This document shows, piece by piece, positions 13,519 through 34,772 of a DNA stretch of 50,772 bases. The DNA is from Thalassobaculaceae bacterium (GTDB taxonomy: Bacteria; Pseudomonadota; Alphaproteobacteria; Thalassobaculales; Thalassobaculaceae), in contig JARGOG010000026.1 of NCBI GenBank assembly GCA_029212785.1, forward strand, positions 1 through 50,772, written 5' to 3'. Every line of letters begins with the position of its first letter. Position 1 is the first letter of the stretch. The translations under genes and the position numbers were made by a program. The notes beneath the pieces were generated by a model. The model was given only the letters and a program-made list of their open reading frames with translations, searched no databases and had not been told where the DNA came from.

Positions 13519-14706
13519 CTACTGTTTGTCGACCAGGGGGCGGGGTTCGCCGAAGAGGTACCCCTGCCCGAAATCCACCTTCAGTTCCAGCAGGTCGAGC
13601 AGCATGTCCTCGCTCTCGATCTTCTCGACGATCAGGTCCATGGCGTGGCGGTCGAGCGCGCCCTTGAACGACCGCATGTCGAGCACCGGATCGTCGCCCC
13701 GCGCCATCTCGTGCAACAGGTGGGCGTTGACCTTCACATAGCGGAAGCCCTGGCCCGAAAGATCCTCGAGATCGAGGTCCAGGTCGTGCACCTGATCCAC
13801 CGAGAACCGATACCCGGCACCGCGCAGACGCTGCAGGTTCATGCGGGTGATGTAGTCGCCGGAGGCGATGCTGGAATAGTCGAATTCGAAGACCAGGGTC
13901 TCGGCGAGCTGCCGGTTCTCGGCCATGAAGGTGATGAAGTCCTGGAAGAAGTCGACATCGGTCAGCGACGCATTGGAGATGTTGCAGAAGAAGCCGACAT
14001 CCAGGTGATCGCGGCGGGCGCGGCGCACCAGCTGGACGCAGCGCACCAGCAGCAGGTTGTCGATCGCCGCCACCAGCCCGGCCTGCTCGGCGACGGGGAT
14101 GTACTGTTCCGGCGTGATCACCGATCCGTTCGGCAGAACGATGCGCGAGAAGCACTCGTAGAACCGGCGCTTACGCTGCGGCAGGCTGACCACCGGCTGC
14201 AGATACAGCTCGACCGCCTCCTCGCGCAGCGCCTCCTCGATGGCCGCCAGCAGGGCCTCGCCATCCATGATCACGACCTTGCCGCCACGGTGGCCGGCCG
14301 TCATCTCGCCCGACTTGTCCGGCGCGGCGATCGCCGCCGTCGCGCCACCGGCCTGATCCTTGCGCGTCGCCAACTGCTTGAGCAGACCCTGAAGCACCTT
14401 CAACTCGCCGGACAGGCGCTCCGCATCGGGCAGGTCGTCCATGCGCGCGCGCAGGGCCTCGACCTCGGAGCGGGCGATGTCGGTCTCTTCCTGAAGCAGG
14501 GCGACGCGACGCGCCAATTCGCGCATGCGCCGCTCGGTCATTCCGGCCTTGCGACGCCCCGCGATGGCGACATGCAGGGACAGCATGATGCCGCCCAGCA
14601 GCACGAACACCACCGGTCCGGAGGCCAGCGCATAGGTCTCGGCCGCCCAGGCGGCAGCACCGACGGCACCGAGGTAGATCAGGGCGATCAGGAAGTGACC
14701 GAAAAT
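13519..14706 (-). CDS. Membrane protein with degenerate EAL domain, TipF-like; probable ATT start
   Basis: The frame is open from a TAG at 14722-14724. The first ATG, GTG or TTG is the GTG at 14613, which would cut a pair of membrane helices in half. An AGGGAG sits six bases before an ATT at 14706, so I place the start there (395 residues). Helices are about residues 3-20 and 31-48, a coiled coil 60-125, and an EAL fold 160-395. EAL key positions: E184 (in YECFSR instead of EAL), N242, E274, D304 kept but its partner Asp is Gln305 (VDQV for DDFG), K325, E361, Q381. Loss of the second metal-site Asp suggests c-di-GMP binding without hydrolysis. Two helices, coiled coil and inactive EAL match Caulobacter TipF, a c-di-GMP receptor for flagellum placement. 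The TipF assignment is inference. Confidence 0.75.
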   Translation of the reverse strand: MFGHFLIALIYLGAVGAAAWAAETYALASGPVVFVLLGGIMLSLHVAIAGRRKAGMTERRMRELARRVALLQEETDIARSEVEALRARMDDLPDAERLSGELKVLQGLLKQLATRKDQAGGATAAIAAPDKSGEMTAGHRGGKVVIMDGEALLAAIEEALREEAVELYLQPVVSLPQRKRRFYECFSRIVLPNGSVITPEQYIPVAEQAGLVAAIDNLLLVRCVQLVRRARRDHLDVGFFCNISNASLTDVDFFQDFITFMAENRQLAETLVFEFDYSSIASGDYITRMNLQRLRGAGYRFSVDQVHDLDLDLEDLSGQGFRYVKVNAHLLHEMARGDDPVLDMRSFKGALDRHAMDLIVEKIESEDMLLDLLELKVDFGQGYLFGEPRPLVDKQ

Positions 14707-14758: not shown

Positions 14759-15832
14759 TCAGCCATTGGCCAATACCGCCGCGTCGACCCCGACGGCCTC
14801 AGCGATCGAGGCATATCCATCCGCCGCCATCCGCGCGACGAGATCGTCACGGATGCGCCGGAACAACCCCGGTCCGTTATACACCAGTGCCGAGTAGAGC
14901 TGCACAAGTGACGCGCCGGCCCGGACCTTGGCATAGGCGGTCTCGCCGTTCTCCACCCCGCCGACACCGACCAGAACCAGCCGGTCCCCGGCCAGCAGAC
15001 GGGCCCGCGCCAGGATTCGGGTGGACGGCTCGAACAGCGGCCGACCGGACAGGCCGCCGGCCTCGCCGCGCGCCGGCGAGCGTAGCGACTCGGGCCGGGC
15101 GATCGTGGTGTTGGAGATGATCAGACCCGACACGCCGGCACGCACCGCCGTCTCGACGATCGTCTCGAGCTGCCCGTCGGCGAGGTCCGGCGCGATCTTC
15201 AGCAACACCGGCGGGCCATGCGGGCCACAGGCCCCCCCCCGTGCCTCCATCACCACGTCCAGCAGCCGGCCGAGCGCCCCCTCGCCCTGCAGATCGCGCA
15301 GGCCCGGGGTGTTCGGCGAGGACACGTTGATCGTCAGATAGTCGGCCAGGGGGGCGAGCATCCGCACGCCGTAGTCGTAATCGTCGACCGGATCGGCGGT
15401 GTCCTTGTTGGCGCCGACATTGATACCGACGATACCGGTGCGCCGGTCGTGGCGCGTCAACCGGCCAGCCGCCGCTTCCAGCCCGTCATTGTTGAAGCCG
15501 TTGCGGTTGATCACAGCAGCATCGCCCGGCAGGCGGAACAGTCTGGGGCGCGGGTTGCCGGCCTGCGGGCGTGGCGTGATCGTCCCGACCTCTACCGCGC
15601 CGACGCCCATATGCAGCAGGGCGTTCCAGCATTCGGCGCTCTTGTCGAACCCAGCGGCGAGACAGATCGGATGCGGAAAATCGAGCCCGAGCAGGTGTTG
15701 GGCAAGACCCGGCGGCGGCCGGGAGCGGTCGACCGGGCCGATCCCGGCGGCCAGCGCACGCACGGTGGCGCGATGCGCCGTTTCCGGGTCGAGGAGGCGG
15801 AGCAGCGAGGGAGCGAGATCGAACAGTGACAT
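14759..15832 (-). CDS. pyrD: Dihydroorotate dehydrogenase (quinone), class 2
   Basis: 357 residues from the ATG at 15832 ([17 protein letters not shown]), the normal start of class 2 enzymes with their membrane-associating N-terminal helices; the open frame runs far upstream but is antisense to other genes there. Conserved blocks: [31 protein letters not shown] (substrate), [16 protein letters not shown] with the catalytic Ser, and [18 protein letters not shown] for FMN phosphate. It oxidises dihydroorotate to orotate at the inner membrane and passes electrons to ubiquinone. A run of nine C (15232-15240, G on the coding strand) lies in the coding sequence. The EAL gene follows after about 52 bases. 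Confidence 0.96.
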
Positions 15833-15973
15833 GGCGCGAGACGGTAATCGGTGCTCCGGCCGCTCACAAGCGTTCGAATTGGCAACCGTGCTGACCATCG
15901 TGGCGCGTTGGCAAGCCCGAGGCCGGCGGGCTAAGGTCGGGGCAATCACAGGCAAATCCGACGGAGCTCCGCT

Positions 15974-16831
15974 ATGGCCACCCCACCCAAGGCCTTCACC
16001 TATGTCGACCAGGACAAGTCCTGGCACGAAGGCAATCCCATGGTTCTCGGCCCGATGACCCAGTCGACCTGGCTCGGCAGCCTGGTCTTCGACGGCGCGC
16101 GCTGGTTCGAAGGCACCATGCCGGACCTCGACCGACACTGCGCGCGCGCCTGCCAAAGCGCCCGCAACATGCTGCTCGAGCCGAAAATTCGACCCGAGGA
16201 GATCGCCGAGCTCGTCAAGGAAGGCGTGTCCAAGCACTCCGGCGACACGGCGCTCTACATCAAGCCGATGTTCTGGGCCGATGGCGGCTGGATCTACCCG
16301 GATCCGGACACGACCCGCTTCATGCTGACGATCTACGAGAGCCCGCTGCCGGAAGACACCGGCTTCAGCGTCAACATCTCCGACAAGATCCGTCCGATGC
16401 CGACGGCGGCGCCGGTCGATGCCAAGGCGGCCTGCCTCTACGCCAATGCCGGGCGCGCGCTCAAGATTGCCCACGAGGCGGGATACGAGAACTGCGTGGT
16501 GCTCGATCCGATCGGCAATGTCGCCGAGCTTGCCACCGCCAACCTGTTCTATGCCAAGGACGGCGAGGTCCACACGCCGGTTCCGAACGGCACCTTCCTC
16601 AACGGCATCACCCGCCAGCGCGTGATCAAGCTGCTGAGCAAGGCGGGCTACAAAGTGCATGAACGGGTGATCACCACACCGGAGCTGATGGAGGCCGACG
16701 AGATCTTCTCCTGCGGCAACCACGGCAAGGTGATGTCGATCACCAAGATCATGGAACGGGCGCTGCAGCCGGGGCCGATCACCGCCAAGGCGCGGGAGCT
16801 CTACTGGGCCTATGCCCACGGCGACGCATAA
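15974..16831 (+). CDS. Class IV aminotransferase, branched-chain amino-acid type
   Basis: 285 residues, with GACGGAG upstream of the ATG. It belongs to the fold-type IV PLP enzymes: the PLP Lys is expected at Lys151 in [11 protein letters not shown], phosphate-binding positions at [12 protein letters not shown] (about 181-192) and NGITRQRV (about 209-216). It would transfer an amino group between branched-chain or related amino acids and 2-oxoglutarate in the cytoplasm. Members of this length with the opening [11 protein letters not shown] are usually annotated branched-chain-amino-acid aminotransferase; an R-selective or D-amino-acid activity cannot be excluded from sequence alone. It begins a three-gene unit with DUF1028 and a lipoprotein gene. 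Confidence 0.88.
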
Positions 16832-16850
16832 GCGGACGGACGTACCAGCC

Positions 16851-17531
16851 ATGACCTTCACCGTAGGCGGCGTGTGTCGGCGCACCGGGCAGTTCGGCAC
16901 GGCGCTCTCCACCTCCTCGATCGGGGCCGGCGGGCGCTGCCCGCACGCCGTCCCCGGTCTCGGCCTTGTCGTCACCCAGGCGCGCACCGACCCACGTCTC
17001 GGGCCGATCGGCCTCGACCTGCTGCGCGCCGGCCGCAGTTCCGGCGAGACGGTGGCGGCCATCGCCGAGTCCAGCCCGAACAGTGCCTGGCGTCAGCTCG
17101 GCGTGCTGACCCCCGACGGCGATGCCGCGGTCTTCACCGGCGGTAGCTGCGCCCAACCGGCGGACGGCATGGTGCTGGCCGACGGTTTCGTCATCGGCAA
17201 TTGGGTGCAGAGCGAAGCGGTGCTGGCGGCCATCGCCGCCGGTTTCGAGTGCGACCCGATGGCGGAGCTGGCCGACCGGCTGCTGCAGGGCATCGAGGGC
17301 GGCGAGGCGGCGGGCGGCGAACTCGATCCGCTGCAGTCGGCCGCCCTTGTCGTCTGCGATCCGGCCTATACATTCCCGATCATCGATCTGCGGGTCGACA
17401 ACTCGCCGACGCCGATCGCCGACCTGCGCCGGACCTGGGAGCGCTGGTCCGCGATCATGGAGGGCTATCTGCTGCGCGCCGTCGATCCGGCCGCCGCCCC
17501 CGACACGAGAAGCCTGGAAGGCCACGCATGA
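16851..17531 (+). CDS. DUF1028 domain-containing protein
   Basis: 226 residues from the ATG at 16851. The opening [20 protein letters not shown] and [16 protein letters not shown] match the DUF1028 family, thought to have an Ntn-hydrolase-like fold. [11 protein letters not shown], then [19 protein letters not shown] and NWVQSEAV also fit. The function of the family is not established; neighbours in other genomes include amino-acid and peptide metabolism genes, consistent with the aminotransferase 19 bases upstream. No signal peptide is seen. The stop codon overlaps the start of the next gene (ATGA at 17528). Confidence 0.9.
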
Positions 17532-23587: not shown

Positions 23588-24325
23588 ATGATCCGATCCT
23601 CCCGCCATGGCGGTTTCGATTTTCGCGATATCTACGTGCTCGTCGTCGAGGACGAGGAATTTGCCCGGGCCCTCACCAATCAGGTTCTGAGGGGCTACGG
23701 TTGCGCCGGCGTGATGGCGGTCGAGAACGGCAACCTGGCGCTGGACGTGTTGACCACCGCCACCCGGTCCTTCGACCTCATCATCTGCGATTTCCGCATG
23801 CCGAAGATGAACGGGCTGGAACTTCTGAAGGCGATCCGCAAGGGCGTGCCGGGTGTGGCGCGCGACATCCCCTTCGCCATGCTGACCAGCCACGCCGACA
23901 AACCGGTGGTCGGCCTCGCGTTCGAACTCGATGTCGATTGCTTCCTGATCAAGCCGATCACGGCAGCGACCATGCGGGAGCGGTTAACCCGGGTGATGGC
24001 GTCCGACCGGACGATCAAAAAGCCGTTCGACTATTACGAGATTGATACCGACCGCGCCGGGACCGGTGATGTCATGTCGGACATGGAGTCCGTGAGCCGC
24101 GCGGGCGCAACACCCGCGACGGTGGGCAAGGTGAGCCGGCCTGGCACCAAGATCGTCAGCCTAGCGAAAGTGCGACCGGGATCGGTGCTGGTCGACCCGG
24201 TGGTCACCAGCGGTGGCCAGCAGCTCCTACCCGCCGGATCAACCCTGGACACCCGCACGGTTGCGCGCCTGCGCGACCTCGCAGAAATGGACGCGAGCGT
24301 GCGCGAAGTGCATGTCGAGGATTAG
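23588..24325 (+). CDS. Response regulator with LRPG-type C-terminal module
   Basis: 245 residues. Residues about 15-140 are a receiver domain: acidic pair in VVEDEE, phospho-acceptor Asp in IICDFRMPKMNG, Thr in AMLTSHA and Lys in FLIKPI. After a linker rich in Ser, Ala and Gly (about 155-195), residues 198-245 contain SLAKVRPGSVLVDPVV, LLPAGSTLD and VARLRDLAEMD. That short module usually sits in front of or behind HD-GYP phosphodiesterase domains, but no HD-GYP is present here. It has no DNA-binding domain, so it likely works by protein contact, or as a phosphate sink in a relay. It converges on the REC-EAL gene with a 21-base gap. The start lacks a visible ribosome-binding site, so the true start could differ by a few codons. 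Confidence 0.85.
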   Translation: MIRSSRHGGFDFRDIYVLVVEDEEFARALTNQVLRGYGCAGVMAVENGNLALDVLTTATRSFDLIICDFRMPKMNGLELLKAIRKGVPGVARDIPFAMLTSHADKPVVGLAFELDVDCFLIKPITAATMRERLTRVMASDRTIKKPFDYYEIDTDRAGTGDVMSDMESVSRAGATPATVGKVSRPGTKIVSLAKVRPGSVLVDPVVTSGGQQLLPAGSTLDTRTVARLRDLAEMDASVREVHVED

Positions 24326-24346
24326 GCCCCACCCGGTGGTCGGGGA

Positions 24347-25552
24347 TCAGACGCGCGCCGCCAGCCGATCCAGAACGAAGGACACGAAATCCGCCGAGGG
24401 TACCGCGCGGGAATAGAGGAACCCCTGGGCAAGATCGCAGCCGAGGGCGCGCAGCGTGTCCGCCTCCGCCTCGGTCTCGACACCCTCGGCGACGACCCGC
24501 AGATCCATCGCCTTGGCCATGGCGATGGTGTTGGCGACGATCGCCCGGTTGTCCGCATCCCCGTCGAGCCCGATGACGAAGGCACGATCGATCTTCAATT
24601 CGCTGAACGGCAGGCGGCGTAGCTGATCGAGGGTCGCGTGGCCCTGGCCGTAGTCGTCGATCGCCAGACCGAATCCGCGCAGCCTGAGGCGCGCCGCGCT
24701 CTCGGTGAAGCGCATCTGATCGCGGCTGACGGCGGTCTCCACCACCTCGAAGACCAGGCGGTCGCGGGGCACGCCCGCCCTGTCGATCCGCGCCATCAGA
24801 TCGCCCATGATCGCCAGATCGTCGAACAGCATGGGCGTCAGATTGATCGACACGTTGAGCGGTGGCATCGCCTTCGGCCAGGCCGACATCGCTTCCAGCG
24901 TGCGGTCGAGGATCTGGACCGTGAAATCGGTCATCATCCCCCGCTCGGAGATGCGGCGCAGGAACACGGCCGGCATGTCGACGGTCCCGTCCGGCTGCAC
25001 CAGCCGTGCCAACGCCTCGGCCCCATGGACCGCCAATCCGGCGAGGGTCAGCTGTGGTTGGAAGAAGGGGATGAACCGGCCGCTGTCGATCAGGGCATCG
25101 ACCATTTCGGTGTCGGCGGGGGCCATCATCACCGGAACCGCTGGCCCTGCCTTGGTCAGGACGGCGAGAGTCGCCTCCAGCGTGTCGCGGGTCAGCGGCT
25201 TGCGCACGCTGCCCATCATGCGCAGACCATAGGCCTTGCCCATCCGTTCCACGCTGTTCAACAACCCGGACTCGTGACCGCTGAGAATCATCAGCGCCGG
25301 TGGCTGATCCAGGTCGGCCGCCCGGCGGATGAACTCCATTCCGTCCATTTCCGGCATGTCCAGATCGCACAGCACGAGGTCGGTCCCCCGCGACGATCCG
25401 GCAAGAGCCTCCAGCGCCGCGTGCCCGGATTCGAAGGTCGCCGCCTCCGGCAGTCCCATCGTCCGACACATCAGGGTGACGGCGAGCCGCTGCGTCGGCT
25501 CGTCATCCACCACCATCACCCTGAGCGTACCCGGCGGCCCCTCAGCCATCAC
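24347..25552 (-). CDS. Response regulator with EAL c-di-GMP phosphodiesterase output
   Basis: 401 residues from the GTG at 25552, eight bases after GGGGAGG (an ATG one codon later at 25549 is the alternative). Residues 10-130 form a receiver with phospho-acceptor Asp63 and the pair Asp16-Asp17; residues about 148-400 form an EAL domain. All catalytic positions look intact: E179 in GAEALARL, N in LNVSINLTP (233), E in FEVVE, Asp299-Asp300 in IDDYGQG, Lys320 in LKID, E356 in VVAEGVET, and Gln in AQGFLYSR. It should hydrolyse c-di-GMP to pGpG, controlled by phosphorylation. The hybrid kinase gene lies 66 bases upstream on the same strand and is the likely partner. Confidence 0.94.
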   Translation of the reverse strand: MMAEGPPGTLRVMVVDDEPTQRLAVTLMCRTMGLPEAATFESGHAALEALAGSSRGTDLVLCDLDMPEMDGMEFIRRAADLDQPPALMILSGHESGLLNSVERMGKAYGLRMMGSVRKPLTRDTLEATLAVLTKAGPAVPVMMAPADTEMVDALIDSGRFIPFFQPQLTLAGLAVHGAEALARLVQPDGTVDMPAVFLRRISERGMMTDFTVQILDRTLEAMSAWPKAMPPLNVSINLTPMLFDDLAIMGDLMARIDRAGVPRDRLVFEVVETAVSRDQMRFTESAARLRLRGFGLAIDDYGQGHATLDQLRRLPFSELKIDRAFVIGLDGDADNRAIVANTIAMAKAMDLRVVAEGVETEAEADTLRALGCDLAQGFLYSRAVPSADFVSFVLDRLAARV

Positions 25553-25618
25553 ATCTCAGCCCTCCCCAGGATATCGTTGCCGCAGCATCATAGCCAAATT
25601 AATGGCAAATGGCCGCAA

Positions 25619-28600
25619 TCATGACGCGGACATCCGCTCCAGATAGTCGAAGACCTCAGCGCTCCTGATTTCGACCTCCTCGAACAGTGCCACGATCGCG
25701 CCCGTCTCCTGCGCCGCCGCCGCACGCTCAAGCGCTTCCAGGGCCGTGCGCAGCCGGGTGGCGCAGGCATTGGCCGACGCCCCCTTGGCGGCGTGGGCGG
25801 ACTCGCGCAGCTCCGTCATCTCACCGGCTTCGACAGCCTCGCGCATGCGGCCATTGAGCTTGCGGAAAGAGTCCGCGAACAACGCCAGCATGGCGGACGC
25901 GAACTCGGGGTCGGCGCTGCCGAGGATCTGTCTCAGCTGGTCGAAGTCGATCGGGCCATCTTCGTCCGGTCCGGTGTCCCCCGGTCCGCCGGAGCGACCG
26001 TCGGGTGCCGAGCCCGGGGTCGCCGTATCCCGGTCGGAGGCATCGAGCCAGCGGTTCAGGGTCTCGCCCATGACGTCGAGGGTTACCGGCTTGGCCAGGT
26101 AGTCGTCCATGCCGGCCTCCAGGCACCGCTCCGCCTCACCGACCAGCGCATTAGCCGTCAGCGCGACGATCGGAACCCGCCCCCCGGTCCGCATCTCTTC
26201 CTCTCGGATCGCGGCGGTGAGCTGGTAGCCGTCCATGTTCGGCATGTGGCAATCGGTGAGGACCAGGCCGTATGGCTTCTCGCGCCACATTCGAAGCCCT
26301 TCCACGCCATCGACCGCGGTTTCTGCCGCGAGGCCGAGAATGGCGAGTTGCCGTTCGACCACCATGCGGTTCGTCGCGTTGTCCTCCACGACCAGGATCA
26401 GCCGACCGTGCAGGACCGCTTCGTCGACCGTCGGCATGCCGAGATCGCCGCCGCCCGAAACCTTGGGATCGGCGACAAAGGGAACCTCCGGGCTCGCCCG
26501 ACCGAGAATCGCGGCCACCGCCCGCACCAGCGGGTCGTGCCGGACCGGTCGCGATACCGCAATGGGAGCCAATTCCGGGGCCGATGGATTCGCCACCCAG
26601 AGCGATCGCGCCTCCGCGCCGGTCCTGTCGCCCCCCCAGTCGCCGCTCGGGACCAGCGTGCGCAGGAGGTCCGAACCGAGCCGCCCGTCGACAATCACCG
26701 CACCGGACATGCCCGGTGTCGGCGCTGCATTGCCATCGACCGCCCGGATCACCGCCATGCCCCGCCAGGAAAGCGTGACGGCGACCTGATCGCCCATCGG
26801 TCCCGGACGCGCCACCACCAGCGCCGACAGCCCGGTCAGGTCGATCGTGTCGAGGTCCGAGGCACCGACTAGGATCGACGGCTCGACCGGAACCTCGAAC
26901 CAGAAGGTGGATCCGGCACCGGGGGCGCTGTCGACGCCGATCTCGCCGTGCATCATGCCGACCAGACGCCGGCAGATGGAGAGGCCGAGACCGGTGCCAC
27001 CGAACCGGCGGGTGGTGGAGGCCTCGGCCTGGCTGAACGGCTGGAACAGAAGGTCGATCCGATCGGCCTCGATGCCCACTCCCGTATCGCTGACCTCGAA
27101 GCGCAGGCGCACGCCGGAGGGGAAGTCCGCATCGGGTCGGGCGGATGCGCGGATCGCGACGGCGCCCGAGTCGGTGAATTTCACCGCATTGCCGACCAGA
27201 TTCATCAGGATCTGGTGCAGACGCACAGGATCGCCGACGAAGACCGCCGGCGCCGACGGATCCATCTCCAGCACCAGGTCCAGATCCTTGCTGTCGGCTG
27301 CCGGCGCCAATGTATCGAGCACGGCTTCCGAGATCGCCCGCAGGTCGACCGGCTCGGCCTCGAGCTCCATCCGTCCGGCCTCGATCTTCGAGAAGTCGAG
27401 GATGTCGTCGATGATCCGTAGCAGCACCTGGCCGGATTCCCGGATCGTGCCGGTGATCCCGCGTTGATCCTCGTCGAGCCCGGTCTGCTCCAGCACCTCG
27501 GCCATGCCGATCACCCCGTTCATCGGGGTCCGGATCTCGTGGCTCATCGCCGCCAGGAAGGCGGATTTCGCCCGGGTCGCCTCCTCCGCCGCATCGCGCG
27601 CGTCGAGCGCCGTCCGTTCGGCCTGCTTCTGCTGCGAGATGTCGACGATGACGTTGACCCGGCCACCATCGGGCAGCGAGGCGACGATGTATTGCACGTC
27701 GAGGCCGGTCTTATCGAAGAAGAACTCCGAAGTGTACCTCCCGTCCGACTCGTAGACCCGCCGGCGGTACTCCATGAACTTCTGCAGGCTCATGTCCTTG
27801 CCGCGGTTATGACCCTCGAAGATATATTGCGAGTACTCGATGAAGTGCGGGTGGTGCTCGAGCGCCCGGTTGCTGAACCCGGTGAAATTGCAGTAGGCGT
27901 CGTTCCAGAACTCCACATGCATGGTCGGGTCGTAGACCAGTACGCCGACCGGAATGGATTGCAGGATGGCGCGGATGCGCTCGCGGGTCTCCTCGGCCTC
28001 CTCGCGGGCCGCCACCGCCTCGGCCTCGTCGCGCTTGCGCTCGGTGATGTCGGTGAGCGTGCGCACGGTCCCTCCGCCCTCGAGCTTGCGCCCGTAGACC
28101 AGCATCCAGTGGCCCCTCTTGAACTCGCGCTCATGGATGAAGATGTCGTTCGCCTCACTGTCGACCCAGTCGTTCCAGTGCGCCACATAGGCGACGACGT
28201 TCGGGTCGGACATGTCGAACTCGCCGATCCGCTGGCGCGCGGCGCGCAGTTCGTCGGTGGTCGGCAGTGCCTCCAGCGTGGAAGAGGACAGCTCCAACAT
28301 GTCGCGGGCCCGGTCGTTCCAGAGCGTAATGTGTCCTTCCGTGTCGGTCACCAGCACGCCCTGCTCCATCGAGCCCAGGACCGTCTCCAGGAACTCGGTC
28401 TTCTCGATCAGCGCCTGCTGGAACCGTCGGGCTTCCGTCATATCGCTGAAGGTCCGGATCTCGCGGCCGTCGGCCAGCGGCTGGAAGACAGCGTGGATCC
28501 AGGTGCCATTGGGACCGGGCCGATCGTATTCCAGCCGGCCGACCGGGATGCCCTGACGCCGGCGCTCCGTCCATTCCTCGATCCGGTGGAGCAGCTCCGG

Positions 28601-30259
28601 CGGCAGCTCGATGCCCTTCTGTTGGTCATGGAACGCGTACAGTTCGGCCGATGACGCGTTGGTCGCATACATCGCGCGCGGAACGCCGAGCAGTTCCGAT
28701 AGCCGATTGTTGAAGACCAGAATGTTGTCGTTGGCGTCCCGCATGATGACGCCCTGATCAATGCTGGCGAGGGTCGATTCCAGCAGTTCACGCCGTTCGG
28801 CCGCTGAGATCTCCGCCTCCTTGCGGCTGGTGATATCGGTGAAGGTGCGCACGTGCCCGCCCTCGGGCAGACGGTTGGCGACGACCAGCAGCCAGCCGCC
28901 GTTGGCCTGGCGGCGCTCGTAGGAGATTCGCGGCGACGGATCCTCACCCGCGTCCCACCTGTCGAGGCGCTCGTTCAATTCCGGCGGAAGGGTCGCCAAT
29001 TCCCCGCGCTCCCTCAGGGCGGCGATGACTTCGCTCTGCGGAATGACACGTCGGATATAGTCCTCCGGCAGCCCGACCAGCTCGCAGAACCGCCGGTTGG
29101 CCAGGACGTGATTGCCGTCGGCGTCGACGAAGGTCAGCCCCTGGTCGACATGGTCGAGAGTGAGTTGCAGCAACCGACTCCAGCGGGCCGTCTCGGCGGC
29201 GGCCGCACGTTCGTCCGACACGTCGATCCAGGAGCGCACCCAACCGCCATCGGGCATCGGGCGGTTGTCGACCCGCAGGATGCGGCCGTCCTTCAGGACC
29301 CGTTCGTAGCCGAAATCCTCGCCCGCCGCCTCCAGACGCTCCCAGTTCTGCAACTGCTTTCGCATCTCCGCCGGTTCGAGATGGTCGAAATCACCACGCT
29401 CGCGACGGAATGCATTGAAAGCGCGGTTGGTCAGCGTCCCATTCAGCAAGTGGTCCGGGACCTCGAACATCTGCTGAAAGCGGTCATTCTGATAGACGAA
29501 GCGCCCACCGTCCTCGACCACCGCAATGGCGTCGGGGATCGCCTGCATGACCGACCGCAACACCTCGCCCTGATGGGACATCCGGTCGGCCAGGTCGATA
29601 TTCTCCAGCCGGCTCTTGATCTGGCCGACCAGGGCGCGCTCGAAGCGGCGCGAGAATCGCAGGAAGTAAACCGCCATCATCGAAAACAGGACGGCGATGA
29701 TCATCAGATCCATGCTGTCGTCGAGGTGCCAGCATTGCAGCAGGCGCACGACCAGCGGAACCATCGCGGCCAGCATGTAATACTTGAAGGCGTTGGAATA
29801 CGCCGACAGGGTTCCGAGCGCGCCGCCCGACAGCCCGGCCATGATCAGCAGGATCCAGGCGGTGATCTCGAAATTCGTCGGTTCCAGGAACAGCACGGGC
29901 AACAGGCCGAAAGAGCCGCCCGACGCGAAGGAGATCGCCTCGAATCGACGACGCCAGCGCCGGACGTCGTGTGCCGCGAGATCACCGCGTGGGAATGCGC
30001 GATAGATCACCAGCCGCAGCCCGGCGACGATCAGCGCCCCGAACAGCCACCAGATCAGCGCCGTCCGGTTGACCGGTTGATTCAGCAGCAGCAGGAAAAC
30101 CGCAATCGACACCGCCGTGTGGCCGACCACGGCGTCGCGGGTCTGACCGAAGAAGAACTGCAGCTGCTCGCCGAGCACGCGGGTATCCATCGCTCGTTCA
30201 GGGTCAGGCCCGGGCGATCCGCCGCCACTCACCGCCTCAATGTCCTCCACCACCGCCAT
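25619..30259 (-). CDS. Membrane hybrid histidine kinase, five PAS domains, receiver and Hpt
   Basis: 1546 residues; GGGGGAGGATCGCG precedes the ATG. Residues about 43-200 contain six hydrophobic segments, a MASE-like membrane sensor. Five PAS domains follow at about 232-350, 360-478, 490-608, 622-742 and 762-878; PAS 2-4 share the DQG or EQG pattern and may derive from duplication. HisKA has His907 in AMSHEIRTPMNG. The HATPase spans about 1005-1127 (N box NLVGNAVKFTD, G boxes DTGVGI and GGTGLGLS). Residues 1144-1250 look like a receiver without the acidic pocket, 1285-1405 are a true receiver with Asp1336, and 1437-1546 an Hpt with His1489 in SAHAAKGAS. All stages of a His-Asp-His relay are thus in one chain; phosphate can pass on to an Asp such as that of the adjacent REC-EAL protein. 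Signal unknown. Confidence 0.95.
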   Translation of the reverse strand: MAVVEDIEAVSGGGSPGPDPERAMDTRVLGEQLQFFFGQTRDAVVGHTAVSIAVFLLLLNQPVNRTALIWWLFGALIVAGLRLVIYRAFPRGDLAAHDVRRWRRRFEAISFASGGSFGLLPVLFLEPTNFEITAWILLIMAGLSGGALGTLSAYSNAFKYYMLAAMVPLVVRLLQCWHLDDSMDLMIIAVLFSMMAVYFLRFSRRFERALVGQIKSRLENIDLADRMSHQGEVLRSVMQAIPDAIAVVEDGGRFVYQNDRFQQMFEVPDHLLNGTLTNRAFNAFRRERGDFDHLEPAEMRKQLQNWERLEAAGEDFGYERVLKDGRILRVDNRPMPDGGWVRSWIDVSDERAAAAETARWSRLLQLTLDHVDQGLTFVDADGNHVLANRRFCELVGLPEDYIRRVIPQSEVIAALRERGELATLPPELNERLDRWDAGEDPSPRISYERRQANGGWLLVVANRLPEGGHVRTFTDITSRKEAEISAAERRELLESTLASIDQGVIMRDANDNILVFNNRLSELLGVPRAMYATNASSAELYAFHDQQKGIELPPELLHRIEEWTERRRQGIPVGRLEYDRPGPNGTWIHAVFQPLADGREIRTFSDMTEARRFQQALIEKTEFLETVLGSMEQGVLVTDTEGHITLWNDRARDMLELSSSTLEALPTTDELRAARQRIGEFDMSDPNVVAYVAHWNDWVDSEANDIFIHEREFKRGHWMLVYGRKLEGGGTVRTLTDITERKRDEAEAVAAREEAEETRERIRAILQSIPVGVLVYDPTMHVEFWNDAYCNFTGFSNRALEHHPHFIEYSQYIFEGHNRGKDMSLQKFMEYRRRVYESDGRYTSEFFFDKTGLDVQYIVASLPDGGRVNVIVDISQQKQAERTALDARDAAEEATRAKSAFLAAMSHEIRTPMNGVIGMAEVLEQTGLDEDQRGITGTIRESGQVLLRIIDDILDFSKIEAGRMELEAEPVDLRAISEAVLDTLAPAADSKDLDLVLEMDPSAPAVFVGDPVRLHQILMNLVGNAVKFTDSGAVAIRASARPDADFPSGVRLRFEVSDTGVGIEADRIDLLFQPFSQAEASTTRRFGGTGLGLSICRRLVGMMHGEIGVDSAPGAGSTFWFEVPVEPSILVGASDLDTIDLTGLSALVVARPGPMGDQVAVTLSWRGMAVIRAVDGNAAPTPGMSGAVIVDGRLGSDLLRTLVPSGDWGGDRTGAEARSLWVANPSAPELAPIAVSRPVRHDPLVRAVAAILGRASPEVPFVADPKVSGGGDLGMPTVDEAVLHGRLILVVEDNATNRMVVERQLAILGLAAETAVDGVEGLRMWREKPYGLVLTDCHMPNMDGYQLTAAIREEEMRTGGRVPIVALTANALVGEAERCLEAGMDDYLAKPVTLDVMGETLNRWLDASDRDTATPGSAPDGRSGGPGDTGPDEDGPIDFDQLRQILGSADPEFASAMLALFADSFRKLNGRMREAVEAGEMTELRESAHAAKGASANACATRLRTALEALERAAAAQETGAIVALFEEVEIRSAEVFDYLERMSAS

Positions 30260-30521
30260 CGCGATCCTCCCCCGGCCGCCACTGCCGGACCCGCTTGCTT
30301 CCCTGGCCCGAAGAATACGTCATTCCGCCGGGCGCGGCACCGCAACCCTGGTCACGGCCGATGACAGGCCGGGAATGCCGCGGCGGAATACCCGGACGTG
30401 TGAACGTCGACTTGCCGCCCGCAGGCGTCTAGGCTCCTGGTGTGAAAAAGAATTTGATCAGAATATCGGGAATGCGCGGACGCACCGGCTCCGTCGAGCG
30501 TCCGGCAGGGAGTAAGCGGCC
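30260..30521. other. Divergent promoter region, hybrid kinase / divL
   Basis: 262 bases between divergent starts, so it must contain both promoters. An AT-richer patch at about 30440-30475 (GTGTGAAAAAGAATTTGATCAGAATATC) lies 50-80 bases upstream of divL. I found no TTAA-N7-TTAA CtrA site and no GANTC motif close to the divL start. Confidence 0.4.
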
Positions 30522-32468
30522 ATGACCCCGCTTCTATGGGGCATTCTGGCAATCCTGGGACTGGCCATCTGCCTGCTTGCCTGGGCCGTGCGGCAGCGGG
30601 GTATCCGCATTTTGAAGCTTGAGGTCGAGCTCCAACAGATGCGCGATTTCGGGCCCGATGTAACGCTCGCGACCCTGCCGGCGCCGGTATGGCGCCGCGA
30701 CGAGACCGGCGCCATCGCCTTTGCCAATTCCGCCGCCGAACCGCTCGTCACTGACCTGGAACGCTCCGCCGGCCTGGCGTCGCGGGCGAGAGAGACCGGA
30801 CGGGCGCAGAGCGAAAGCAGGAACCTTGTTATCGATGGCAAGCGCCGCCTGTTCGAGATCTGGGAGGCGCCCCAGGCGTCGGAAGCGGGCCTTGGAACCA
30901 TCGGCGCCGGGCGCGACGTGACGGCGCTGGAGCAGCTCCAGGGCGAACTGGCGCGCCACGTCGATGCCCATGCCGAGGTGCTGGAGAAGCTGAACAGCGC
31001 CATCGCCGTCTTCGGCCCCGACCGGCGCGTGGTGTTCGCCAACACCGCCTTCGCCCTGATGTGGGAGATCGAGCCGGAGCGCCTGGAAAGGGGGCCGACC
31101 CTTTCCGAGGTGCTGGATATGGCGCGCGAGAGCCGCCGGCTGCCCGAACAATCCGACTTCCGGGCCTGGCGCGACGACTTCAACCGGCTGTTCACGACGT
31201 TGATCGACGCCCACGAGGAGCTGCTGTTCCTGCCCGACGACAGCACCCTGCGCATGGTCGTCACGCCGCACCCGTTCGGCGGCCTGCTCATGACCTTCGA
31301 GGACGTGACCGACCGGCTGACCCTGGAGCGCTCCTACAACACACTGACCGCGGTCCAGCAGGAGACGCTGGACAACCTCTACGAAGGCATCGTGGTGTTC
31401 GGCGTGGACAGTCGCATGAAGCTGTCGAATCCGACCTTCCGCACCCAGTGGGGACTGACCGGTACGGAAGACCATCCGTTCTTCGACGAGTTGGAACCGC
31501 CGGCCGATTTGGTGTTCGACGCGATGCGGGCGAAGTTTCCCCTCGACCGTCCCTGGGCCGACATCAAAGCCGACTGGATCGGTTTTCTATCCAGGCGCGA
31601 GGTCACAAGCGGCACCGTGCACCTGACCGACGGTCTTGCCCTCGACTTCGCGGTCGTGCCGCTGCCCGACGGTGCCACCCTGCTGAACTTCCGCGACGTC
31701 ACCGACACCCTGGCGGTGCAGAACGCCCTGCAGGAACGCACCGAGGCGCTGGAGACGGCGGACCGCCTGAAGAGCGAGTTCCTGGCCAACGTCTCCTATG
31801 AACTGCGCACGCCGCTGAACGCGATCATCGGCTTCTCCGAGGTCCTGGAGCAGGAATATGCCGGACCGATGAACGAGCGGCAGAAGGATTACGCCAACGC
31901 GATCCTCGGGTCCTCCAACCGACTGGTACGGCTGGTCAACGACATCCTCGATCTCGCCTCCATCGAGGCCGGCTACCTGGAATTGGAGCGTCAGGAGATC
32001 GCCCCGTCCGCGCTGGCGAGTGCAGTGGAGGGGCTGGCGCGGGAGCGGGTACGGGCCCGTGGCGTCGGCCTGGAGGTCAGATGTCCGGCCGGCCTCCCAC
32101 CGATCGAGGTCGACGAGCGGCGACTCACCCAGGCACTGTACAACGTGGTCTCCAATGCCATCGCCTTCACGCCCGAGGGCGGCGATGTGGTCCTGACGAT
32201 CGAGGACCTCGGCGAAGTCGTCGCGTTTCGCGTCAAGGATACCGGCGTCGGCATTGCGTTGGACGACCAGACCAGGGTCTTCGAGCGCTTCGAGCGACGC
32301 GGCCGGTCCAGCGGCGCCGGGCTCGGCCTGGCGCTGGTGAAGTCGCTCATCGAGCTGCATGACGGGACGGTCACGCTGACCTCCGCGCCGGGCCGGGGAA
32401 CCGAGGTGGTATGCTCCGTCCCTCGCCATCCCGTCTCCGCGGCGACCTCCGGAGTCGGGACCAGGTGA
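30522..32468 (+). CDS. divL: DivL-type pseudo-histidine kinase (Tyr in place of His)
   Basis: 648 residues. A single N-terminal membrane helix (residues 3-23) is followed by PAS-like domains at about 48-135, 150-265 and 278-398, then a HisKA-like helix pair and an HATPase domain (about 530-635). The H box reads SYELRTPLNA: Tyr426 (codon TAT at 31797) replaces the phospho-accepting His. The HATPase retains N box NVVSNAIAFTP and G boxes DTGVGI and GAGLGLAL. Caulobacter DivL has the same substitution and architecture; it works by contacting the CckA kinase and DivK to control CtrA and the cell cycle, not by His phosphorylation. Gene order with tsaE directly behind also matches. Its stop overlaps the tsaE start (GTGA), so it heads a long operon. 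AGGGAG sits nine bases before the ATG. Confidence 0.88.
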   Translation: MTPLLWGILAILGLAICLLAWAVRQRGIRILKLEVELQQMRDFGPDVTLATLPAPVWRRDETGAIAFANSAAEPLVTDLERSAGLASRARETGRAQSESRNLVIDGKRRLFEIWEAPQASEAGLGTIGAGRDVTALEQLQGELARHVDAHAEVLEKLNSAIAVFGPDRRVVFANTAFALMWEIEPERLERGPTLSEVLDMARESRRLPEQSDFRAWRDDFNRLFTTLIDAHEELLFLPDDSTLRMVVTPHPFGGLLMTFEDVTDRLTLERSYNTLTAVQQETLDNLYEGIVVFGVDSRMKLSNPTFRTQWGLTGTEDHPFFDELEPPADLVFDAMRAKFPLDRPWADIKADWIGFLSRREVTSGTVHLTDGLALDFAVVPLPDGATLLNFRDVTDTLAVQNALQERTEALETADRLKSEFLANVSYELRTPLNAIIGFSEVLEQEYAGPMNERQKDYANAILGSSNRLVRLVNDILDLASIEAGYLELERQEIAPSALASAVEGLARERVRARGVGLEVRCPAGLPPIEVDERRLTQALYNVVSNAIAFTPEGGDVVLTIEDLGEVVAFRVKDTGVGIALDDQTRVFERFERRGRSSGAGLGLALVKSLIELHDGTVTLTSAPGRGTEVVCSVPRHPVSAATSGVGTR

Positions 32469-32944
32469 TCTCGCTACCGTTGGACGACCTCGACGCCACC
32501 GACCGCCTTGCCGCCGCTCTTGCCAGGACCGCCGAGACCGGGCTGTGCATTCTGCTGTCGGGACCACTCGGAGCCGGAAAGAGCGAGTTGGCCCGGTCGT
32601 TCGTCCGCGCCTGGCTCGGTGATCCGGATACCGAGGTGCCGAGCCCGACCTTCACCCTGGTGCAACCCTATGACGGCCCCCGCGGAACCATCTGGCACTG
32701 CGACCTGTATCGGCTCGGCGATCCGGGCGAGGTCGAGGAACTGGGCTTGTCGGAAGCGTTCGCCGATGCGGTGGTCCTGGTCGAGTGGCCGGACCGGCTC
32801 GGCACAGCCCTCCCCGTCGACCGTCTCGAACTGACGTTGGAAATATGCCATGGAAGTGACCGGCGGATCGCGCATCTGACGCCCCATGGGCGCTGGACGG
32901 GCCGCCTGGATGAGATCGAGACGGGAACCCTGCCGGGTGAATGA
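32465..32944 (+). CDS. tsaE: tRNA threonylcarbamoyladenosine biosynthesis ATPase TsaE
   Basis: 159 residues from the GTG at 32465 that overlaps the divL stop; a longer open frame upstream lies inside divL. The P-loop is GPLGAGKSEL (about residues 31-40), with PSPTFTLVQPY and HCDLYRLGDPGEVEELGL following, and VEWPDRLG (about 107-114), all diagnostic of TsaE. It is the ATPase that works with TsaB and TsaD to complete t6A at position 37 of tRNAs reading ANN codons. Length is normal. The next gene begins within its last codons. Confidence 0.95.
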   Translation: MISLPLDDLDATDRLAAALARTAETGLCILLSGPLGAGKSELARSFVRAWLGDPDTEVPSPTFTLVQPYDGPRGTIWHCDLYRLGDPGEVEELGLSEAFADAVVLVEWPDRLGTALPVDRLELTLEICHGSDRRIAHLTPHGRWTGRLDEIETGTLPGE

Positions 32945-33986
32945 CCGCGACGCCGAGATCAGTGCTTTTCTGGAAACCGCCGGCTGGCGCGGGGCTTCGG
33001 TCACGCTGCTGGCCAAGGACGCCTCCTATCGGGTGTATCATCGGGTGACCCGCGACGGCGCCCGTGCCGTGTTGATGGATGCCCCGCCGGCCCTCGAGGA
33101 CGTTCGCCCGTTCCTCGACATCGCCGCTCAGCTGCGCCGATTCGGGTATTCCGCCCCGGCGATCCTGGCCGAGGACGTCCCCGCCGGGTTGCTTCTGTTG
33201 GAGGATTTCGGCGACCGTACCTTCACCCGCATCCTCGCCGATCCGAGCGAACGGGAGTGGGACGAAGAGGCGCTGTACAGCCTCGCCGTCGACCTGCTGG
33301 CCGATCTGCACGCGCGCGCGCCGGAAATCGGCTTCTCCGCCCCGCCCTATGACGGCAACCGACTGGTCGAGGAGGCCGACCGGATGCTGCGCTGGTTCGC
33401 GCCGCTGGTGCTCGGCGATCTGGTCTCCAGCGACGTGGCCGAGGCCTACCGCGCGGCATGGCGCGCCGCCGTTCCGGTCATGACCGACGGGCCGGATACC
33501 CTGGTGCTGCGCGACTTCCACGTCGACAACCTGATGATCCTGCCGGGACGCGAAGGCCTCGCGCGCTGCGGATTGCTGGATTTCCAGGACGCGCTGTCCG
33601 GCAACCCCGCCTACGACCTGGTCTCGCTGCTGCAGGATGCGCGGCGCGATCTGGCGTCGGGGTTGGAGACGGCGATGCTCGCGCGCTACCGGAGCCGTCG
33701 GAACGTCGCCGATTGGAATGCCTTCCTACGCGCCTACCACGCGCTCGGCGCTCAGCGGGCGATCAAGATCCTGGGACAGTTCGGCCGCCAGCAGGGTTTC
33801 TTCGAGCGCACCAGCTATATGGTTCACATTCCGCGCTGCTGGGCGCATATCGAGACGAATGTCGCGCGGGCGGACCTTGGTCCGGTGGCCGACTGGCTCG
33901 ACCGGGAGATGCCGTCGGCATTCCGTCGGATCCCCGATCCGGACCGGCGACTGCCGGCCTCGGTCAGCCCCGAAATCAAGCGCTGA
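32937..33986 (+). CDS. amgK: N-acetylmuramate/N-acetylglucosamine kinase AmgK
   Basis: 349 residues from the GTG at 32937, which overlaps the tsaE stop; in-frame ATGs at 32886 and 32910 are alternatives. It has the aminoglycoside phosphotransferase fold: LRDFHVDNLMIL (about residues 184-195) supplies the catalytic Asp and Asn, and LLDFQDALSGNPAYDL the metal-binding Asp. The neighbour MurU gene decides the function: AmgK phosphorylates the anomeric OH of MurNAc in the cell-wall recycling route that rebuilds UDP-MurNAc without MurA. The FGRQQGFF and YMVHIPRCW stretches near the C-terminus fit AmgK-type proteins. Cytoplasmic. The family call is firm; the substrate follows from context. Confidence 0.87.
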   Translation: MNDRDAEISAFLETAGWRGASVTLLAKDASYRVYHRVTRDGARAVLMDAPPALEDVRPFLDIAAQLRRFGYSAPAILAEDVPAGLLLLEDFGDRTFTRILADPSEREWDEEALYSLAVDLLADLHARAPEIGFSAPPYDGNRLVEEADRMLRWFAPLVLGDLVSSDVAEAYRAAWRAAVPVMTDGPDTLVLRDFHVDNLMILPGREGLARCGLLDFQDALSGNPAYDLVSLLQDARRDLASGLETAMLARYRSRRNVADWNAFLRAYHALGAQRAIKILGQFGRQQGFFERTSYMVHIPRCWAHIETNVARADLGPVADWLDREMPSAFRRIPDPDRRLPASVSPEIKR

Positions 33987-34007
33987 AAGACCGGTGAGGA
34001 CCCTGTC

Positions 34008-34772
34008 ATGCTGCTGTCTGGACTGAGCCGCCGACCGACCTGGCTGCCGGACACCGCCATGGTGTTGTGCGCCGGCCGCGGCACACGCCTGGCGCCATTG
34101 ACCGACACGGTGCCGAAGCCACTCGTTCCGGTCTGCGGCGTGCCGATCGTCGACCGCACGCTGGAGCACCTGACCCGTGCCGGCGTCAAGCGCGCCGTCC
34201 TGAACGCTCACTATCTCGGCGAACAACTGGAAGATCATCTCAAGGACCGCGCGGCCCCGGAGATCACCGTCCTACAGGAAGACGTGGTGCTGGAGACCGG
34301 CGGCGGGGTGAGGAATGCCCTGCCCCATCTCGGCGACGCGCCGTTCTTCGTCATCAACGGCGACAGCGTGTGGCTGGATGGTCTGCGCAACGCCCTGCAC
34401 CGCTTCGCCGATACCTGGGACCCGGAGAGGATGGACATTCAGCTTCTCCTGTATCCCTTCGCCCGGGTGCTTGGCTGGCACGGCTATGGCGACTACACGA
34501 TGGATGAACTCGGCCGGATCTCGGGCCGGGAGGAGGGTCGAATCGCACCCTACGCCTATATGGGCGTGTCCATCGTCCATCCCCGCATCTTCAGGGCCGC
34601 GCCGGACGGGCCGTTCTCGATGAAGCGGCTCTACGACCACGCGGAAGCGCAGGGCCGGCTCTTCGGCGCGCTGCATGACGGGCTCTGGTATCATATTTCC
34701 ACGCCCGCCGATCTGGAGCAGGCCAACCAGCGCTTCGCCGGCGGCCATGTCGCCGACGTGCCCTTCTTCTGA
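34008..34772 (+). CDS. murU: N-acetylmuramate alpha-1-phosphate uridylyltransferase MurU
   Basis: 254 residues. The nucleotidyltransferase signature AMVLCAGRGTRLAPLTDTVP with PKPLVPV follows at residues about 17-43, then NAHYLGEQLEDHL, LETGGGVRNALP and VINGDSVW, where the Asp binds the metal. It transfers UMP from UTP to MurNAc-1-phosphate, giving UDP-MurNAc, after AmgK. Length is a little longer than Pseudomonas MurU (about 223 residues), the extra part being N-terminal (about 15 residues) and C-terminal. It follows amgK by 21 bases in the divL operon. Confidence 0.9.
   Translation: MLLSGLSRRPTWLPDTAMVLCAGRGTRLAPLTDTVPKPLVPVCGVPIVDRTLEHLTRAGVKRAVLNAHYLGEQLEDHLKDRAAPEITVLQEDVVLETGGGVRNALPHLGDAPFFVINGDSVWLDGLRNALHRFADTWDPERMDIQLLLYPFARVLGWHGYGDYTMDELGRISGREEGRIAPYAYMGVSIVHPRIFRAAPDGPFSMKRLYDHAEAQGRLFGALHDGLWYHISTPADLEQANQRFAGGHVADVPFF

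Follow-up and report, generated by a model that had tools for sequence, protein, structure and literature searches.

The window analysed here, a stretch of 50,772 nucleotides from a Thalassobaculaceae bacterium (contig JARGOG010000026.1), carries genes for a large hybrid kinase, a REC-EAL protein, a further response regulator and DivL side by side. Does this arrangement reflect a single signalling pathway, and does that pathway include DivL? A sequence-only reading had proposed that the kinase passes phosphate through its Hpt to the REC-EAL protein and so sets c-di-GMP, with DivL as a cell-cycle partner. The four ORFs were confirmed at 23588-32468 with their signature residues intact, and they are no chance ORFs because their whole domain architectures recur in other genomes.

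Gene order and domain content

The features of the locus are as follows.

23588..24325, plus strand: RR245, second response regulator, 245 aa (Pfam Response_reg 79.2 bits)
24347..25552, minus strand: REC-EAL protein, 401 aa (Pfam EAL 206.4 and Response_reg 65.4 bits)
25619..30259, minus strand: unorthodox hybrid kinase, 1546 aa (Pfam HisKA, HATPase_c, Response_reg, Hpt)
30260..30521, no strand: divergent intergenic region between kinase and divL, 262 bases
30522..32468, plus strand: DivL, 648 aa (best PDB match 4q20, Tyr426 in the H-box)

The stop of the kinase gene precedes the REC-EAL start by 66 bases on the same strand, exactly the spacing reported earlier. RR245 and the REC-EAL gene are convergent and 21 bases apart, and divL and the kinase gene diverge across 262 bases.

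The kinase harbors PAS_7 (five stretches), HisKA, HATPase_c, Response_reg and Hpt domains, the last scoring 29.3 bits against a Pfam cut-off of 24.6. The relay residues His907 (HisKA), Asp1336 (REC) and His1489 (Hpt) are in place by sequence and are retained in kinase relatives, so that the complete His-Asp-His relay attributed to this protein is borne out; HisKA, HATPase, REC and an own Hpt are also what characterizes a Roc1-type kinase. Upstream of HisKA lie PAS families plus one sensor-domain match below its cut-off, and the periplasmic SBP_bac_3 sensors of the Roc1 type were absent from the kinase in the Pfam search. No Pfam stretch is listed for the first ~230 residues, and the N-terminus, judged by eye from residues 1 to ~230, looks membrane-bound. 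In one relative (G010), an in-frame TAA at L040 6934-6936 breaks the kinase gene into two ORFs.

Asp63 of the REC-EAL protein, previously named as its phosphoacceptor, was confirmed and is invariant in seven aligned sequences, as are all nine of E179, N237, E269, E272, D299, D300, K320, E356 and Q376, which we take from the RocR literature to be the catalytic residues. The best PDB match is RocR (3sy8, E 2.2e-51), and an adjacent RocR-type REC-EAL protein with intact acceptor and catalytic residues is a hallmark of Roc1-type systems. Judged from these residues, the protein is probably a c-di-GMP phosphodiesterase of the RocR/PvrR type, which destroys c-di-GMP. Its best NCBIfam match is PvrR (NF052596) at 274.5 bits, far under the curated cut-off of 580, which places it outside the PvrR equivalog. 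Elsewhere in the window (13519-14613, minus strand), a second EAL protein of 364 aa is encoded, its EAL domain starting at residue 124 and scoring 144 bits. It has an N-terminal part that resembles a membrane or coiled-coil region, and its motifs are degenerate, with ECF in place of EAL and DQ in place of DD; the protein resembles a TipF-type non-catalytic EAL protein. Next to it, a 767-aa ORF (14759-17062, minus strand) has a dihydroorotate dehydrogenase domain confined to residues 453-745, its first ~450 residues matching no Pfam family at E<=0.001.

RR245 had been described as receiver-only. The structure model corrects this: the receiver (Asp68) is followed by a low-confidence linker and a C-terminal domain of ~60 residues, predicted to consist of strands and one helix. 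The full-length model has a pLDDT of 82 and the C-terminal domain modelled alone one of 91. Response_reg is the sole Pfam domain of the protein, and the C-terminal domain belongs to no Pfam family; nor is RR245 recognisably DNA-binding (GerE/HTH), as the second regulator of a Roc1-type system would be. With the whole model, structure matches are receivers, mostly CheY, among the 50 matches listed. With the C-terminal domain alone, Foldseek returned nothing under E 0.001, the best match being an RNA polymerase at 0.029, while VIA-align gave middling Z scores for gephyrin (8.8, rmsd 1.4, 53 aligned), MoeA (8.0) and RNA polymerase beta' (7.9). A profile search matched RNA polymerase beta' sequences over 35 residues (E 6.7e-5), and a weak, non-significant MshEN match was obtained with one of eight RR245 family members (E 0.077). 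The fold common to the modelled domain and these matches may be a widespread small barrel-like module, from which no function is drawn. The domain is probably a protein-interaction output rather than a DNA-binding one.

Recurrence of the kinase, REC-EAL and RR245 genes

Conservation of gene order was assessed in a sample of the order comprising 36 genomes, all of one family. The kinase and REC-EAL genes stand in tandem on one strand in four genomes, namely that of the window (G000) and three others spanning two other genera: G010 (L040), G019 (L041, where the kinase start sits on another contig end, L032) and G009 (L042). G009 has the full triad of kinase, REC-EAL and convergent RR245 orthologue (49% identity); in G010 and G019, RR245 does not adjoin the tandem. 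None of these three tandems has divL beside it, the gene lying on other contigs. REC-EAL orthologues (E<=1e-80) were found in G000, G008, G009, G010, G019 and G020, six of the 36 genomes, and RR245 orthologues (E<=1e-29) in the identical six, with both thresholds chosen after the lists had been seen (the next genome, G018, scores 5.1e-74 for REC-EAL and 8.7e-23 for RR245). If the two were independent, an identical six would arise with a chance of 5e-7 among 36 genomes; counting only the 18 genomes of the order with a divL match raises it to 5e-5, and both values are too small since the genomes are related.

A REC-EAL gene adjoins four of ten kinase relatives inspected (G000, G002, G003, G008, G009, G010, G019, two in G020, and G131 C22; weaker matches were left out). 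Those without one are G002, G003 and G131 C22 and, more distantly related, two in G020 and one in G008; the REC-EAL genes of G020 and G008 have no kinase beside them. In G131, which lies outside the order, a methyltransferase-like gene follows the close kinase relative. Across 385 genomes of the class, kinase relatives at E<=1e-45 occur in G000, G003 and G131 (two candidates per genome scored). REC-EAL matches at E<=1e-55 occur in 25 of 385 (at most four candidates per genome scored), none above 37% identity apart from the window's own, and close REC-EAL orthologues are therefore seen only in the order. Named genomes were also scanned with the REC-EAL alignment, using the best 80 of 222 relatives: 40 full REC-EAL proteins, 24 other EAL proteins and 16 that were neither and were dropped. 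A same-strand kinase lies within 300 bases at 14 of the 40 REC-EAL loci (seven of which have short flanks and were kept in the count) versus one of the 24 other EAL loci (Fisher p 0.005, indicative only as the species are related), and at one further REC-EAL locus the kinase is on the opposite strand. Pairing of a kinase with a REC-EAL protein is thus frequent and already known, the Aromatoleum loci L062 and L064 being examples from this set. Gene trees are compatible with shared inheritance of the pair, with patchy support (0.165 at one kinase node). Taken as gene order and sequence, these data support the kinase and REC-EAL protein as a recurring unit.

RR245-type proteins adjoin a kinase or REC-Hpt gene at seven of ten sites (G000, G009, G020, G131, G134, G146 and G228), or at six of nine without G228, which matches by its receiver only. 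The tandem pair in G131 C5 is counted as one site, and two proteins that match by the receiver only, G027 C104 (L169) and the second one of L168, are left out. The arrangements vary: the regulator follows the kinase by 10 bases in G131 and by 216 bases in G146 (where the kinase Hpt misses the Pfam cut-off by 0.1 bit), is overlapped by the preceding kinase in G134, comes after a kinase and one receiver ORF in G020, where no Hpt was seen, and is preceded by a REC-Hpt ORF in G228. A neighbouring kinase is absent at the other three sites, G008, G010 and G019, the RR245 gene of G019 having a contig end 338 bases away on one side. Because RR245-type genes adjoin a kinase or REC-Hpt gene at most sites, RR245 is likely to be targeted by the same kinase as well. 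In G131 (L150 10809-12312), an Hpt-bearing kinase is followed by two tandem RR245-type regulators, 45% and 41% identical to that of the window, which suggests duplication of this regulator type.

The divL row and the congeners

The best PDB match of DivL is the solved DivL structure 4q20 (E 4.3e-49), and Tyr426 replaces the H-box histidine, both as expected of a DivL. With its H-box tyrosine, PAS domains and best structure match, the protein resembles the Caulobacter type, and no difference that bears on the finding was seen. The gene opens a row, divL-tsaE-amgK-murU-addB-addA, that is kept in the family: in each of the 16 family loci inspected, and in one locus from outside the family, divL is followed by tsaE and amgK, with murU, addB and addA coming next in the longer family regions, and at four loci of other families the divL flank showed neither tsaE nor amgK. 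In the window, amgK and murU (cell-wall recycling) occupy 32886-34772 on the plus strand after divL-tsaE, with NCBIfam matches below cut-off.

On its upstream side, divL is adjoined by a kinase relative at only three of 21 loci (20 of the 34 divL-positive genomes plus G131, with upstream flanks of 0.4 to 1.5 kb). All three belong to one genus (G000, G002 and G003), with 245-262 bases between the genes. The intergenic region contains no CtrA box (TTAA-N7-TTAA) in any of four sequences (window, G002, G003 and the further congener G004), and GANTC occurs in two copies each in G002 and G004, in one copy in G003 and not at all in the intergenic region of the window. Its divL-proximal block, possibly the promoter, is shared by the window, G002 and G003 and also by G004, which has neither kinase nor regulators at divL. 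A tree of DivL, AmgK, MurU and AddB joins G002 with G003 and leaves G004 outside. Two further genomes of the genus, G001 and G005 (1.5 Mb, one contig, 99% complete, the congeners having 4.7-5.6 Mb), gave no divL match at E<=1e-60.

G002 and G003 amount to a natural experiment, being close relatives with the same kinase and without both regulators. Their kinases are 70-71% identical to that of the window, with relay residues intact. In G002 no REC-EAL protein was found, the three matches at E<=1e-10 covering the EAL part only (53 of 65 candidates scored); its kinase keeps an intact Hpt and can therefore live without a REC-EAL target. G003 has a distant REC-EAL protein (33%) about 0.5 Mb away. 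Matches to RR245 in both genomes cover the receiver only, among the matches listed, and a tblastn search (E<=1e-3) for remnants of either regulator after the kinase gave only the kinase's own receiver. The place of the two regulators is taken by two small, unrelated ORFs on the kinase strand (L037 12532-13448, L038 13218-14090). Judged by eye, one (127-142 aa) looks exported and the other (156 aa) membrane-like. The two genomes may have lost both regulators or may never have had them.

The genome also encodes, outside this locus, a ChpT-family protein and one resembling CckA (488 bits against a cut-off of 1000), and the usual DivL pathway is therefore probably available without the kinase. DivL as a partner of the kinase was rejected on synteny (three of 21 loci, one genus) and for want of a CtrA box. 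The cell-cycle role assigned to it by the sequence-only reading is not supported by this comparison, two of the three congeneric loci being in genomes without orthologues of both regulators. The four-gene order was met in G000 only within the genomes searched, an outcome that the earlier reading had itself named as counting against it. The best reading is that divL is a neighbour through local rearrangement, seemingly a chance adjacency, and adjacency confined to one genus should not be read as a cell-cycle link.

A proposed branched phosphorelay, its alternatives and known systems

We consider it fairly probable that the kinase, the REC-EAL protein and RR245 form one branched His-Asp-His-Asp phosphorelay working, by analogy, like RocS1/RocR/RocA1, with divL separate. 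A signal would be sensed by the membrane/PAS part of the kinase, and phosphate would pass from His907 to Asp1336 and on to His1489 of the Hpt. The Hpt would pass it on to two acceptors, Asp68 of RR245 and Asp63 of the REC-EAL protein, and the latter transfer would alter the phosphodiesterase output toward c-di-GMP. In one genus, the kinase unit would have arrived alongside the divL row, making the two adjacent. What we infer is each transfer of phosphate, the activity of the enzyme, the direction of the response and the service of two receivers by one Hpt. Observation has established the genes, domains and residues, the recurrence of pair and triad and, at the loci checked, the lack of divL adjacency outside the genus. 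The kinase-to-c-di-GMP half of the original model is supported—by the tandem in four genomes, the intact residues and the RocS1-RocR two-hybrid interaction described in the accessible text of PMC3083521—and its DivL half is not. Against the branched relay stand RR245 genes without a neighbouring kinase (G008, G010, G019), the split kinase of G010 and the kinase relatives without an adjoining REC-EAL gene, including that of G002 with its intact Hpt.

RR245 might instead be the main cognate regulator, the neighbouring REC-EAL protein being only secondary or insulated. Proteins of the RR245 type do follow Hpt-bearing kinases without an adjoining REC-EAL gene outside the order (G131, G146, G134), but the kinase/REC-EAL tandem of G010 and G019 has no RR245 next to it, and we regard this reading as unlikely. 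That the kinase is a real cell-cycle input, in one pathway with DivL either directly or by c-di-GMP acting on CckA, with the adjacency selected, would accord with the pairing seen in three congeners at 245-262 bases, with the ChpT-family and CckA-like proteins and with Caulobacter, where according to the accessible part of PMC5189948 c-di-GMP binds CckA and DivL activates it. We regard it as quite unlikely in view of the single genus concerned, the conserved divL-proximal block of G004 without the kinase and the lack of a CtrA box; moreover, the two congeners that retain the adjacency, G002 and G003, lack a REC-EAL gene at this place, and none was found anywhere in G002, so that they are without the c-di-GMP route. 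In principle, c-di-GMP could affect the cell cycle indirectly through CckA (PMC5189948, in the portion available), but adjacency adds nothing to this route because it holds for any phosphodiesterase of the cell.

The four genes may also be mere neighbours, with phosphate going to an unlinked regulator. The kinases of G002 and G003, which keep the Hpt histidine with neither regulator adjoining, would fit; tandem and triad recur at unrelated sites of other genera, and REC-EAL and RR245 are present in the same six of 36 genomes, which makes this very unlikely. Finally, a Roc1-like kinase could have been captured by the cell cycle in this genus, feeding DivL-CckA-ChpT-CtrA in the congeners without REC-EAL and RR245 and serving both c-di-GMP and the cell cycle in the window species, which seems far-fetched.

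The earlier statement that no described system has this layout was too strong: minus DivL, it comes close to roc1, although no paper on this gene layout itself was found in the open-access literature, most subscription journals being outside the scope of the search. RocS1/RocR/RocA1 of Pseudomonas aeruginosa is, by analogy, a close functional parallel. As far as the accessible text of two papers goes (PMC3083521, PMC12051241), Roc1 likewise combines an unorthodox kinase (HisKA-HATPase-REC-Hpt), an adjoining REC-EAL phosphodiesterase and a second regulator on the opposite strand, and one unorthodox sensor feeds both RocA1 and RocR; the first also reports that the RocS1 Hpt binds the RocR receiver in two-hybrid assays in P. 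aeruginosa. Several differences exist. RocS1 carries SBP_bac_3 sensors, whereas in the window kinase PAS_7 repeats follow an N-terminus that looks membrane-like; RocA1 belongs to the DNA-binding HTH proteins, to which RR245 does not recognisably belong; and in Roc1 an operon rocR-rocS1 has rocA1 divergent to it, whereas in the window the kinase gene precedes the REC-EAL gene and RR245 faces them convergently. For want of SBP sensors in the kinase and of a recognisable DNA-binding domain in RR245, the locus is not classed as a Roc1 member. A hybrid kinase is also paired with a REC-EAL protein in PvrS/PvrR of P. aeruginosa PA14. In contrast to the window kinase, which has its own Hpt, PvrS has none and acts on RcsB, and PvrS and PvrR gave no interaction in two-hybrid assays, as stated in the available sections of PMC3842833. 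Kinase/REC-EAL pairs are thus known already, and the locus described here adds an alphaproteobacterial example in which the unit includes a second regulator with an output domain unnamed in Pfam.
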